NCBI RefSeq assembly: GCF_001687335.1
Contig: NZ_MAGO01000002.1
Coordinates: 62,001-126,000 of the forward strand
Direction: 5' to 3'
Source: Dissulfuribacter thermophilus
GTDB lineage: Bacteria; Desulfobacterota; Dissulfuribacteria; Dissulfuribacterales; Dissulfuribacteraceae
Length of the DNA: 64,000 bases
Part shown: in pieces, positions 17,096 to 62,616 of the stretch
Numbering within the stretch: the stretch's first letter is position 1
Layout: the number at the start of each line of letters is the position of its first letter
Program-made: the position numbers and the translations under genes
Notes under the pieces: model-generated
The model's input: only the letters and a program-made list of their open reading frames with translations
Told to the model about the DNA's origin: nothing
Databases searched by the model: none

Positions 17096-17153
17096 TTCGT
17101 ACTCCTCTAATTTAATTTCAAACTAAATCCCTCATGCCAAATGCCCGAAAATC

Positions 17154-17256
17154 ATCCCAGATTATGCACTTCAAATGTCTGAAAAAAGGATTTTCTATGA
17201 ATAATTCAATAGTTATCTGCATCTTCGGCAAACTTGCGAGCTGCATAATCTGGGAT
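17154..17256. repeat. Full copy (103 bp) of the palindromic repeat family with perfect 15-bp ends
   Basis: ATCCCAGATTATGCA (17154-17168) and TGCATAATCTGGGAT (17242-17256) are perfect inverted repeats. The first 60 bases closely match the start of the copy at 36276, and the right part read in reverse (AAGTTTGCCGAAGATGC) matches the left-end block of other copies. It has no coding capacity and no obvious target duplication. Confidence 0.85.
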
Positions 17257-17469
17257 CATAACCCTTAAAAGGCTTGAGCGCAGCACCAAAATTTTTTGCC
17301 CTTCAAAACTGTGGGCTTATAAATATTGATGAAGGTACCCTGCCTCTCTGGTAGAGTCGGCAGCTATAGAAATCAAGATTAAAGAAATAAAATCTGTTTT
17401 GCCATTAAGGACAATAGGTCTATTGCATCTTTGTAGTCAATAGAGTATTAGAATCAAAAATATTTATAC

Positions 17470-17720
17470 CTAAATCCTGCACGGCAAAAGTGGGCAAAAA
17501 TGACTTATTTACGATTTTATAGAATACTAGCTAACATCTGGCTATTCACTAAATTCACTTTTTGGGTGAATCCATATTTTGTGTTTTTTGCCCCCTTTTG
17601 CCACCCTTAGGGATTGCCGATTTTGCCAAGTCTGCTGTCCTATGGGCAATAGAAGTGCTCAAGGACATCCGCAGGCCCTCCACTTCAATCTTTGGCAAAC
17701 TCGGCAATTGCAGGATTTAG
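17470..17720. repeat. Full long copy (251 bp) of the palindromic repeat family with perfect 12-bp ends
   Basis: CTAAATCCTGCA (17470-17481) and TGCAGGATTTAG (17709-17720) are perfect inverted ends. Read in reverse it aligns along its length with the copy at 38114-38369: the AATTGCCGAGTTTGCC block, ATCGGCAATCCC, then GGGTGGCAAAAGGGGGCAAA. An inner stem ATTGCCGA (17613-17620)/TCGGCAAT (17701-17708) is perfect. Together with the copy at 17154 it fills the 650-bp gap before xseB, in which I see no gene. Confidence 0.85.
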
Positions 17721-17745
17721 CTTATCCCCAAAAGGATCGACACAT

Positions 17746-30155: not shown

Positions 30156-30995
30156 TTAAGCCTGTTCTTCTTTTGCTGCCTCATCCTGAACTTCAGCGGC
30201 TGCCACCTCATCGGCGACTTCGCTAGAGGTTTCCTGCCCTTCTAGAGAAGCCTCCTCTTGTACACCTTCACCACCGGCCTCTTTATCAGTCTCAGCCTGT
30301 AAGGCCTCTTCATACTTGTTTCTGCCCTCAATTACAGCATCTGCAATCCTTGATGTTATTAATCGAATGGCCCTTATGGCATCATCATTACCAGGAATGA
30401 CATAATCAATGCCATCGGGGTCACAGTTAGTATCGACAATTGCTACAACGGGAATACCAAGCTTGTTGGCCTCTTTAACGGCAATCTGCTCCTGCTTGGC
30501 GTCAACAACGAAAAGAGCCTGAGGGATATCGTCCATGTCCTTGATTCCACCAAGGTTTCTTTGAAGCTTTTCTCTCAATTTATCGAGCTTTAAGACCTCT
30601 TTTTTGGGGAAGCGTTCAATCGTGCCATCTTCGAACATCTGCTCCAACTTTTTTAGCTTCTCTACACTCTTTTTGATAGTATTAAAGTTGGTAAGCATTC
30701 CTCCAAGCCAACGGTGTTGCACATAGGGCATACCACATCTTGTTGCTTCTTCTACTATTGAATCTTGGGCCTGCTTTTTTGTCCCTACAAACAAGACGTT
30801 CCCACCGTTAGCAGCACAGTCCACTACAAATTCATAGGCCTTTTTAAAGAGACGCACTGTCTTTTGAAGGTCAATGATGTAAATACCATTGCGTGCCCCA
30901 AAGATGTAGGGTCTCATCTTGGGATTCCACCGCCTAGTCTGATGGCCAAAATGGACCCCTGCCTCAAGAAGCTGCTTCATTGTGATGTAAGCCAT
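30156..30995 (-). CDS. rpsB: Small ribosomal subunit protein uS2
   Basis: 279 residues. The start [31 protein letters not shown] and the [20 protein letters not shown] block are diagnostic. After about residue 225 there is a long acidic, Ala/Glu-rich tail, longer than in E. coli S2 (241 residues). A strong RBS (AAGGAGGAATT) precedes the ATG and a promoter is at 31142-31170. Confidence 0.97.
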
Positions 30996-31141
30996 AATTC
31001 CTCCTTTTTGTGGTTATTCCTCCGCCCAAAACACACCTCGTTGGTCGACCAAAAGATTGATCTAGAGAACCCACAGGTGCACTCCCTTATTAGCCAAACT
31101 TTGGCACCACAAGGGACAAGGGCGTGTGTATTCGGGGCCAT

Positions 31142-31170
31142 TTCATAACACTCTAGCCTTTATTTGACAA
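31142..31170 (-). promoter_or_regulatory. Sigma-70-like promoter of the rpsB operon
   Basis: On the minus strand TTGTCA (31165-31170) and TATGAA (31142-31147) are 17 bases apart. Transcription would give a leader of about 140 nt before rpsB; it holds a perfect 12-base palindrome TTGGTCGACCAA (31041-31052). The divergent NSS promoter lies just to the right. Confidence 0.55.
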
Positions 31171-31234
31171 GTATATTTTTTATCTTTTGCGGCCAAATTA
31201 GGGAAATTGAATCACGATTGGGGGGCTTTGTGAT

Positions 31235-31264
31235 TTGACACCAGTCAAGATTTATTATTATAAT
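31235..31264 (+). promoter_or_regulatory. Consensus sigma-70 promoter upstream of the NSS transporter
   Basis: TTGACA (31235-31240) and TATAAT (31259-31264), spacing 18. Both boxes match the consensus in full. Start of transcription would be near 31271, immediately before the hairpin at 31280-31324. Confidence 0.65.
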
Positions 31265-31279
31265 ACGCAGAATTACGTG

Positions 31280-31336
31280 CACCTAAATCCAGCATATCGA
31301 ATACGAAGGAAAAGGATTTAGGTGTCATTTTTTATG
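31280..31336 (+). terminator. Promoter-proximal hairpin with T-tract (attenuator, small RNA end, or repeat remnant)
   Basis: CACCTAAATCC (31280-31290) and GGATTTAGGTG (31314-31324) are perfect 11-base arms with a 23-base loop, followed by TCATTTTTTATG. It lies about 10 nt after the predicted transcription start. The arm ACCTAAATCC also equals the end sequence of the repeat family, so it could be a remnant of such an element now used as a terminator. Confidence 0.5.
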
Positions 31337-31564
31337 TGCATCATACATATCAAGATGGCTTAATTTTATCTATTCCCAACATCTACTGGGGGAAGCTACA
31401 AATTAGAAAAAATAATGAAATATTATGTTAAAACATATTACATACTCGACTTATAAGCTTTGGTCCGCTTCCCATCATTTAGTCAGTCCCAGGTCTTTCG
31501 TCTCAGTCAGTTCAAGATTCAAAAGAACTAAGTCCTCTAAACCTACATGTGAAAGGAGTAAAAA

Positions 31565-33082
31565 GTGAGAGAGCATTGGGCATCTAGAATTGGACTCATC
31601 CTAGCAATGGCAGGAAATGCAGTTGGACTTGGAAATTTCCTTCGCTTCCCCACCCAGGCGGCTCAAAATGGTGGTGGAGTCTTTATGATTCCATACATGC
31701 TTTCCCTAGCGCTCATAGCAATACCACTCATGTGGGTTGAATGGGCCATTGGCCGTTACGGTGGTGTTCGAGGCCATGGTACTACCCCTGCTATATTTAA
31801 ACTGCTTTGGAAACACCCAACGGCAAAATATTTGGGGGTACTCGGTCTATTCGTTCCATTCGTTGTGGTTTGTTATTATATCTATATCGAGTCTTGGACC
31901 CTTGGCTACGCCATAATGGCAATTTTAGGAGGTCTTCCCACAGCCGCAGACCTCGGTCAGCTCGGCACCCCAGACTACCTAGCTCCATTTGAGAACCTAC
32001 TTAAAAGTTACACGGGTATGAATGGAACAGGCATCTATAACCCATCACTAATGGCTTATTCGATGTTTATTATAACTGTAGTTCTCAACATATTCATTCT
32101 TATAAAGGGTATATCAGGAGGAATAGAAAAACTAGCAAAGGTCGCAATGCCTTTATTATTTGTTTTTGCCATAATCTTGATGATAAGGGTATTGACCCTC
32201 AAAACCCCCCAGGGTTCGGCATTAGACGGACTCAATTTCCTATGGACTCCAAAGTGGGATCAACTATCCAACCCCAAGATATGGCTTGCAGCAGCTGGTC
32301 AGGTCTTCTTCACCCTCAGTCTTGGTTTTGGTGCCATAATTACCTATGCGTCATACTTAGGAAAGAACGACGACCTGGTACTATCAGGACTAAGCGCTTC
32401 TTCGCTAAATGAATTTGCCGAGGTAGTTCTTGGGGCATCCATCGCTATACCTGCAGCAGCAGCATTTTTCGGTGTAGTGGCTGCCCAAGATATCGCCTCA
32501 TCAGGTGCTTTCAATCTGGCATTCGTTAGCCTTCCAGCTATTTTTGCCAATATCCCCTTTGGAAACATATTTGGATTTTTGTGGTTCACTCTCCTGTTTT
32601 TTGCCGGACTGACCTCTTCCGTGGCTATTACCCAACCAGTTATTGCCTTCTTAGAAGACGAATTCCAACTTTCGAGAAAAAAATCGGTCTTATTCACCAT
32701 GGGTGTCTTGTTTTGTATTGCCCATATCCCAGTCTTTCTGGCTTCAGCATTAGATGAAATGGATTTTTGGGCCGGGACTTTTTGTGTAATCGTTTTTGCC
32801 CTAATTGAGGTAATGATCTTTTTCTGGGCATTTGATCCACAAAAGGCATGGGAGGAAATCAATAGAGGAGGCATCATTCAGGCACCTAAAATATTCTATC
32901 CAATAATGCGTTTCATTACCCCTGTTTTTTTATTTGTCATAACTTTTTGGTGGGTCATTGACATTCTTCCTCAGTACCTCACCAAGGCATCCTGGACAGC
33001 TTGGGTGGCAAGGGGGACCCTTATGGGCATAGCATTTGCCCTATGTCTTTTAGTATATATTTCAGATAGAAAGAGGAGGTAG
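31565..33082 (+). CDS. Sodium-dependent transporter of the neurotransmitter:sodium symporter (NSS) family
   Basis: 505 residues, GTG start after AAAGGAG. The first helix has the sodium-site signature AGNAVGLGNFLRFP, and about 12 membrane helices follow with G-ETS-like TM regions (VPFVVVCYYIYIESW). It imports an amino acid with Na+. A 37-residue partner follows within 6 bp, as in the MetP/MetS methionine-alanine symporter arrangement, so an amino acid substrate of that class is suggested, not shown. Confidence 0.93.
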   Translation: MREHWASRIGLILAMAGNAVGLGNFLRFPTQAAQNGGGVFMIPYMLSLALIAIPLMWVEWAIGRYGGVRGHGTTPAIFKLLWKHPTAKYLGVLGLFVPFVVVCYYIYIESWTLGYAIMAILGGLPTAADLGQLGTPDYLAPFENLLKSYTGMNGTGIYNPSLMAYSMFIITVVLNIFILIKGISGGIEKLAKVAMPLLFVFAIILMIRVLTLKTPQGSALDGLNFLWTPKWDQLSNPKIWLAAAGQVFFTLSLGFGAIITYASYLGKNDDLVLSGLSASSLNEFAEVVLGASIAIPAAAAFFGVVAAQDIASSGAFNLAFVSLPAIFANIPFGNIFGFLWFTLLFFAGLTSSVAITQPVIAFLEDEFQLSRKKSVLFTMGVLFCIAHIPVFLASALDEMDFWAGTFCVIVFALIEVMIFFWAFDPQKAWEEINRGGIIQAPKIFYPIMRFITPVFLFVITFWWVIDILPQYLTKASWTAWVARGTLMGIAFALCLLVYISDRKRR

Positions 33083-33087
33083 AGAAA

Positions 33088-33201
33088 TTGAATAGCCAAG
33101 CCCTGCTATTTATGTTATTTTCATGGGGTCTTGTATTGAGTTTGTGCACATTTTGCTTTAGGAAACTGTTTGCAGCTCACTCCAAAAAGACCAAACACTA
33201 A
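33088..33201 (+). CDS. Small subunit of the NSS transporter (MetS-like), 37 residues
   Basis: TTG at 33088 follows AGAGGAGGT by seven bases; the RBS overlaps the transporter's end. The product is one hydrophobic helix (about 6-24: LLFMLFSWGLVLSLCTFCF) with a basic C-terminal tail, the usual shape of MetS-type small subunits that sit beside NSS transporters. The immediate coupling supports a real gene although it is short. Confidence 0.75.
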   Translation: MNSQALLFMLFSWGLVLSLCTFCFRKLFAAHSKKTKH

Positions 33202-36258: not shown

Positions 36259-36275
36259 GTAAATCGTAAACCTTC

Positions 36276-36514
36276 ATCCCAGATTATGCACTTCAAATGC
36301 CTGAGGAAAGTAATTTTTATGAATTATTGCATAGTTAGCATGCATCTTTTCCCGTTGTGCCTTCACCCAAAAGGTGAAGTTCAATCCGTGATAAATCCCT
36401 CAGGCATTTGAAGCCGCAAGGGGCTCGCAATTTTACCGAGGTCTCTTTGTTGTCGGGCACTTGAAGTATCAAAGTACGTCTTCGGCAAGGCTTTTGAGCT
36501 GCATAATCCGGGTT
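36276..36514. repeat. Full copy (239 bp) of the palindromic repeat family, with inner 16-bp perfect inverted repeat
   Basis: Ends ATCCCAGATTATGCA (36276-36290) and TGCATAATCCGGGTT (36500-36514) match at 12 of 15. Inside, CTTCAAATGCCTGAGG (36291-36306) and CCTCAGGCATTTGAAG (36398-36413) are perfect arms, and CTTCACC-CAAAA-GGTGAAG (36361-36379) is a perfect hairpin. In reverse, 36439-36477 matches 38171-38209 at 35 of 39 bases. Confidence 0.85.
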
Positions 36515-36559
36515 CATGGCATACAATAACGTCTTATTTATATAATAGGCCGATCACTA

Positions 36560-36792: not shown

Positions 36793-37173
36793 GGAGATGG
36801 CCCGCGGTCGCTGGATGAGGGTCTAAAAGATCTTCATTCCAGAGGAAAGTCCGGGCTCCACAGGGCAAGGTGGTCCGTAACACGGACCGGGGGTGACCCC
36901 AGGGAAAGTGCCACAGAAAACAGACCGCCTGCGGTTGATACCTAGTGGTATCAACACAGGTAAGGGTGAAAAGGTGAGGTAAGAGCTCACCAGATCTCCT
37001 GGTGACAGGAGATGCTTGGTAAACCCCACCTGGAGCAAGGCCAAATAGGGAGGCGCTCGAGGGTGGCCCGCCCAAAGCCTCCGGGTAGGCTGCTAGAGGT
37101 GCTGGGCAACCAGCATCCCAGATGAATGACCGCACCCCATTCGGGGAACAGAACCCGGCTTATGGCCATCTCC
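36793..37173 (+). ncRNA. rnpB: RNase P RNA, bacterial class A
   Basis: About 381 nt. The end stem pairs GGAGATGG (36793-36800) with CCATCTCC (37166-37173). The universally conserved blocks are present: GAGGAAAGTCCGGGCTCC (P4 5' part), ACAGGG, the GAAAGTGCCACAGAAA region, and near the end AGATGAATGACCGC and ACAGAACCCGGCTTA. It is the catalytic RNA that matures tRNA 5' ends. The 3' end runs close to panB, and a long frame of panB reads back into it, which is why panB is started later. Confidence 0.97.
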
Positions 37174-37211
37174 ATTTTTATTTTAAAATTCCACGATCAA
37201 TTGATAGAAAA

Positions 37212-38042: not shown

Positions 38043-38113
38043 CCTGCCCTGATATCCCGATTATTCTTTTGAGATAGTCTGTCCCCCTCCTCTTTCCTCC
38101 CCCCAATCATAAA

Positions 38114-38369
38114 CCCAAATTATGCAATTGGCGAGTTTGCCCAAGATGCCAGGCAGAGGGCACGCAAAGAGTACTTAGGTACTTCAAGTACCCGACAACA
38201 AAGAGCCCTGAGCGAAATCGCCAATCCCGAAGGGCGGCGCAAGGGGGCAAAAAACACTTGATTTTGTTTCACCTAAAAGGTGCTTTTTGAGCAACTTTTT
38301 ATGAGAAGGCAACAACTTGATATAATTGAAAAAATATTTTTTGCCCCCTTGCGTCGTGCATAATTACCG
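38114..38369. repeat. Full long copy (about 256 bp) of the palindromic repeat family
   Basis: Ends CCCAAATTATGCA (38114-38126) and TGCATAATTACCG (38357-38369) share the core AATTATGCA. Inside, ATTGGCGA (38127-38134) pairs with TCGCCAAT (38218-38225), and CGCAAGGGGGCAAAAAA (38238-38254) pairs perfectly with TTTTTTGCCCCCTTGCG (38337-38353). It aligns in reverse with the copy at 17470 and shares 35 of 39 bases with part of the copy at 36276. Confidence 0.85.
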
Positions 38370-62564: not shown

Positions 62565-62570
62565 TTTTAT

Positions 62571-62605
62571 ACCTAAATCCTGCACGGCAAAAGGGGGCAA
62601 AAATT
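62571..62605. repeat. Left end only of the palindromic repeat family between two convergent genes
   Basis: ACCTAAATCCTGCACGGCAA then AAGGGGGCAAAAATTAATTG closely matches the end at 17469 (same first 20 bases). No right end is present; it stops near the glgC-like gene's TAA at 62617. Confidence 0.65.
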
Positions 62606-62616
62606 AATTGTATAGG

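Follow-up and report, generated by a model that had tools for sequence, protein, structure and literature searches.

Bacterial MITEs such as RUP, BOX, Correia/NEMIS, and MITEAba12 appear in the accounts cited here as short, noncoding elements with terminal inverted repeats and target duplications, and they insert near or inside transcription units (PMC3049150, PMC3733652, PMC6382973). In one of these accounts, the MITE described has target duplications and also carries putative promoters directed outward (PMC6382973). As described in PMC3049150, the SPRITE repeats of Streptococcus pneumoniae resemble a Rho-independent terminator, and BIMEs within operons attenuate; that is, inserted repeats can lower downstream expression.

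Here we describe a terminator-like hairpin that lies between a full-consensus promoter and a transporter gene. It was found in a stretch of 64,000 nucleotides (nt), which is called the window below and to which all coordinates refer. In the reading that we consider probable, the hairpin belongs to a genome-wide MITE-like family as its smallest, decayed member; it lies behind the symporter promoter and, if it acts at all, makes a fixed partial terminator there. By analogy, it would be one more case of the terminator-like or attenuating inserted repeats already described. Like RUP, BOX, Correia/NEMIS, and MITEAba12 as characterized in the sources above, the family has inverted repeats and target duplications, but it has its own end, CCTAAATCCTGCA, and a 5-bp TNNNA target. 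According to the source on SPRITE, those repeats include the U-rich tract and favor gene ends, whereas the copy here does not include the T's and is found upstream of a gene. The BIMEs of that account are inside operons; the putative attenuating copy here is in a leader, directly behind the promoter. Riboswitch, T-box, and leader-peptide attenuators also have a terminator-like hairpin in the 5′ leader, but at this locus we found no sensing domain, competing structure, or conservation.

If this reading is right, the locus exemplifies how mobile-element debris that lands next to a run rich in T can give rise to a terminator-like leader, and cautions against calling every promoter-hairpin-T layout a small RNA. 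The range of lengths in the repeat family, together with its TNNNA target, would be one route to such hairpins in this bacterial group.

Promoter, hairpin, and leader

The locus has the following parts.

30156-30995, minus strand: rpsB (ribosomal protein S2), the divergent neighbor (TIGR01011, E 2.4e-109)
31235-31264, plus strand: full-consensus sigma-70-type promoter TTGACA-18-TATAAT (-35 at 31235-31240, -10 at 31259-31264)
31280-31324, plus strand: predicted RNA hairpin with an 11-bp perfect stem, CACCTAAATCC at 31280-31290 and GGATTTAGGTG at 31314-31324, and a 23-nt loop
31282-31322, no strand assigned: putative minimal or decayed family copy, CCTAAATCC-23-GGATTTAGG, 41 bp, from its match to the family ends
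31323-31327, no strand assigned: right flank TGTCA, in agreement with the TNNNA target of the family, from comparison of flanks
31328-31333, plus strand: T6 tract in a terminator-like layout, outside the repeat, separated from the perfect stem by a 3-base spacer, TCA
31334-31564, plus strand: remainder of the leader, unusually long, single copy in the genome, and weakly structured
31565-33082, plus strand: transporter of the SNF/NSS (sodium:neurotransmitter symporter) family, 505 amino acids (aa), GTG start (PF00209, E 5.3e-60; NF037979, E 1.4e-27)

An earlier note on this DNA had described TTGACA-18-TATAAT ahead of the NSS symporter gene, and the sequence confirms it, with a scanner score of 12/12. 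In the 2.52-Mb genome, TTGACA and TATAAT with a spacing of 16 to 18 occur three times, versus once for a reversed control pattern; a first-order Markov model expects about 1.5 full-consensus promoters in the genome. From the end of the promoter to the transporter gene is 300 nt. The transcript start, about 31271, is a predicted, unmapped position derived from the usual spacing to a promoter. The same note's 11-bp stem within about 10 nt of the predicted start, followed by six T's 230 bp before the transporter, is also there as described: the stem begins about 9 nt from the predicted start, and 231 nt separate the end of the T6 tract from the GTG at 31565. Because rpsB runs away on the minus strand, no gene enters the terminator-like site from the left.

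The predicted RNA fold of 31271-31345 has an energy of −19.1 kcal/mol (z −3.87; none of 200 shuffles was as good). For the hairpin alone (31279-31325), the predicted energy is −17.8 kcal/mol at 37°C and −9.6 kcal/mol at 60°C, and it ranks 10th by hairpin energy among the 956 T-tract sites of the window, both strands counted. Our terminator scanner accepts loops of 3 to 8 nt and T's that begin 0 to 2 bases past the stem; it passes over this hairpin, which has a 23-nt loop and a 3-base gap. Both the loop and the gap are poor for a terminator. By itself an 11-bp stem is unremarkable, there being three perfect stems of ≥11 bp with a loop of ≤30 in the window versus zero to two in each of six simulated windows. 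The combination of promoter, hairpin, and T-tract is, however, far above chance: only 2 of 200,000 simulated random 100-nt segments had a stem of ≥11 bp at 5 to 25 nt plus a T-tract.

Downstream of the T-tract, the leader (31334-31564) has less predicted structure than its shuffles do (fold z +1.64), and the whole leader folded no better than its own shuffles. A search of 31334-31564 for a second promoter gave none better than chance; the best candidate, TTAAAA-18-TATAAG at 31428, scores 9/12, which is the commonest best score in shuffled sequence (176 of 300). A 13-codon reading frame, from a GTG at 31322 to a TAA at 31363 with AAGGA before the GTG (by eye), begins inside the hairpin and has no run of regulatory codons. 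At the gathering score, Rfam models matched only RNase P RNA and one tRNA in the window. With the threshold relaxed to E ≤5, the sole match in the segment 31000-31600 was a eukaryotic scaRNA model on the opposite strand (E 0.56), which we took as chance.

The repeat family here and in other genomes

The genome has 15 occurrences of the stem sequence CACCTAAATCC, two of which are the arms of the hairpin; the reversed control occurs twice. Eleven of the other 13 sites are ends of one dispersed repeat, and two (L048 and L055) are not. The longer repeat end, CCTAAATCCTGCA, has 63 exact copies in the genome and its reversed control has none. We read 40 stretches, covering 58 of these 63 ends, for two-ended elements, allowing ≤2 mismatches per end. 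The reading yielded 32 elements whose terminal inverted repeats are CCTAAATCC and GGATTTAGG: 18 of 253 to 259 bp, one of 222 bp, and 13 short members (152, 147, 135, 98, 85, 84, 84, 83, 80, 74, 70, 61, and 46 bp).

Both 5-bp flanks were available for 31 elements, and in 23 of these the flanks agree at four or five positions, compared with a mean of 4.0 and a maximum of 12 in 2,000 shuffles. The right flank is TNNNA in 22 of the 31. The family has thus been mobile. MITEs are defined in PMC3049150 by inverted repeats, target duplication, and a base-paired structure; the present family is dispersed, has inverted repeats and target duplications, and is too short for a transposase. The string CCTAAATCCTGCA gave no match in the open-license literature searched, and with the few terms tried we found no description of deltaproteobacterial miniature repeats in that literature. 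The CCTAAATCC repeat also occurs elsewhere in the window, as does a second palindromic family, whose ends are CCCAGATTATGCA and TGCATAATCTGGG; the sites include 17151-17724, 36274-36517, 38109-38365, and 62566-62614.

The earlier note had also remarked that the arms of the hairpin resemble the ends of a repeat family, and this is well supported, given the 63 CCTAAATCCTGCA ends in the genome. Both terminal 9-mers are exact in the 41-bp copy, at 31282 and 31314. Compared by eye with the 13-nt family end, the copy agrees at 12 of 13 positions on the left and 10 of 13 on the right; the inner TGCA is AGCA on the left (3 of 4) and has gone on the right, where AAAA agrees at 1 of 4. The copy is shorter than all 32 members read, the next shortest being 46 bp, and its interior is only loosely family-like and by eye unlike that of any short member read. 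Its left flank, GTGCA (31277-31281), agrees with the right flank, TGTCA, at two of five positions, so that a target duplication is not demonstrated for this copy. Runs of T5 occur ≤18 nt from 8 of 57 repeat ends, so that one such run next to a repeat end calls for no particular explanation and a terminator-like layout can come about by accident; the idea that the T-tract is part of the repeat was dropped. In the same genome, the flank GGATTTAGGTGTCGTTTTTT of the repeat end L050/L170 is similar to the flank of the hairpin, as is the flank GGATTTAGGTTTGATTTTTCATGTG of a repeat end in another genus (L191), by chance or through target preference.

The genome has no other CCTAAATCC and GGATTTAGG pair separated by 10 to 38 nt, and a search with a 201-bp stretch for further copies of the hairpin or leader gave none in its own genome at E 0.001. 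At E ≤10, a search of the genome with 31265-31345 gave nine other short matches, several of them repeat ends, and a search with the leader gave 20 other matches, the best with E 0.5.

The relatives that we searched include two genomes of the same family and none of the same genus. Seven were searched for CCTAAATCCTGCA, which has 58 copies in G001, 7 in G002, 6 in G011, and none in the other four. G002, the nearest relative, has the same divergent pair of rpsB and a transporter that is 87% identical; G001 has no match to the transporter. Upstream of the transporter in G002 there is no such hairpin. A promoter-like sequence, TTGTCA-17-TAAATT, ends 33 nt before the G002 transporter, versus 300 nt here, and a second promoter-like site (9/12) is at 105 nt. 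G002 lacks the leader segment 31334-31564 as well, so the hairpin is not the sole difference between the two loci. We made this comparison by positions, as the pairwise alignment is unreliable between the promoters. Conservation of the hairpin, a check proposed in the earlier note, was not seen: none of 39 relatives drawn from 80 named relatives, the syntenic G002 among them, has a perfect stem of ≥8 bp with a T-rich tail upstream of the transporter, although some of the stretches are probably coding, and absence there is weak evidence. As far as can be seen from these genomes, the hairpin and most of the approximately 230 nt behind it appear to be peculiar to this genome.

A DNA search of 60 genomes (its own included) with 31190-31560 gave five matches outside its own genome, each covering 24 to 41 bases of the query (E 5e-4 to 0.0095). 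The hairpin's matches in the 59 other genomes are repeat ends only, in G001, G027, and G040. Those in G027 and G040, which belong to the same order, are the left ends of full-length copies, and the identity (31 of 37 and 32 of 40 bases) takes in both end and interior. In G001, the match is a right repeat end followed by ATTTTTCATGTG, which is similar to ATTTTTTATGTG here. The other matches are to the leader: 31499-31539 shares 35 of 41 bases with G052 (E 5.2e-4), a genome from the same phylum, perhaps through another repeat, and 31420-31443 matches G031.

Probable origin and possible effect of the hairpin

The course of events that we favor would have begun when a repeat fragment inserted just downstream of the symporter promoter. 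Two inverted ends close together, with a T-rich stretch that was at the target site by accident, would then fold like an intrinsic terminator. A fraction of the transcripts would stop at about 31333, giving an RNA of about 63 nt as a by-product, and the remainder would read into the transporter gene; expression of the transporter would be lowered by a fixed amount, and we propose no regulating signal. Partial termination that leaves an RNA of about 63 nt is possible. Thermosulfurimonas and Thermodesulfatator are, going by their genus names, thermophilic; if the host is like these relatives, the hairpin would be weaker (at 60°C, the predicted −9.6 kcal/mol) and might cause little termination. 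It is also conceivable, if quite improbable, that a transposon end pair reduced to its inverted repeats has been domesticated as a brake. Pairing in the stem would then be kept while the interior decays, the strong promoter would offset the fixed loss, and the RNA of about 63 nt might be stable enough for a role of its own.

Coincidence is a very unlikely source of the resemblance between the arms and the repeat end. Chance alone should produce about one 11-bp stem in 64 kb, and the right inner end and the flanks fit the family poorly; but a given 11-bp stem would contain CCTAAATCC with a probability of about 2e-5 (a hand estimate from base composition), the left end shares 12 of its 13 bases with the family end, and the match to the G027 and G040 copies extends into the interior. 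That the insertion is inert, with the polymerase reading through or the transporter driven by a weak promoter such as the one at 31428, seems rather unlikely to us. The poor terminator geometry (loop of 23, gap of 3) would suit such an insertion, as would the weaker fold at 60°C if the host is thermophilic. The energy of the hairpin, among the best of the T-tract sites in the window, argues against it, and the 31428 candidate scores no better than shuffled sequence commonly does.

The earlier note had offered either a small RNA of about 60 nt or an attenuator that controls the transporter, and neither is supported. A dedicated gene for an RNA of about 63 nt that acts in trans, the transporter having another promoter, would account for the promoter-hairpin-T layout, the strong fold, and the unusually long distance to the transporter. 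It is nevertheless improbable: there is no relevant Rfam match, no second copy of the 201-bp stretch at E 0.001, no comparable upstream hairpin in any of the 39 relatives, and no match to the hairpin in the 59 other genomes except repeat ends. Moreover, the hairpin would make up nearly the whole RNA, and 31334-31564 holds no second promoter above chance. Regulated attenuation by a riboswitch, a leader peptide, or an RNA-binding protein would be in keeping with a terminator-like hairpin within the transporter's 5′ leader and with the 13-codon frame and its upstream AAGGA, yet we think it very doubtful. The roughly 9 nt from the predicted start to the stem leave no room for an upstream antiterminator and so rule out attenuators and riboswitches of the classical layout; the downstream leader is less structured than its shuffles; no relevant Rfam family matches; the hairpin is not conserved in the relatives checked; and the short frame starts within the hairpin and lacks a regulatory codon run. 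Partial termination by a decayed repeat copy is the reading that we prefer to all of these.

Other features near the locus

The leader of rpsB (30996-31150, minus strand) includes an outer stem, CACGCC..GGCGG, the sequence GTGGTGCC, and AACCAC immediately upstream of the Shine-Dalgarno sequence; a pseudoknot is possible. An alignment of 24 rpsB leaders has 12 predicted pairs, 8 of which have changes on both sides. Rfam gave no match to this leader, either in the window at the gathering score or in 31000-31600 at E ≤5. In appearance it resembles the pseudoknot-containing rpsB motif already described in PMC2704228.

Directly 3′ of the transporter gene is a membrane-like open reading frame (ORF) of 37 aa (33088-33201, plus strand). 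At least 20 of the 80 named relatives also encode a small protein of this kind (..ALLFMLFSWGLVLSLCTFCFxKLF..) after the transporter gene (E <1e-6); the 37-aa ORF has no Pfam match. In Corynebacterium, a small protein, MetS, acts as the partner of MetP. Farther along the plus strand, at 36793-37177, lies the RNase P RNA (bacterial class A; Rfam E 4.2e-108), which overlaps the start of the ORF that runs from 37122.
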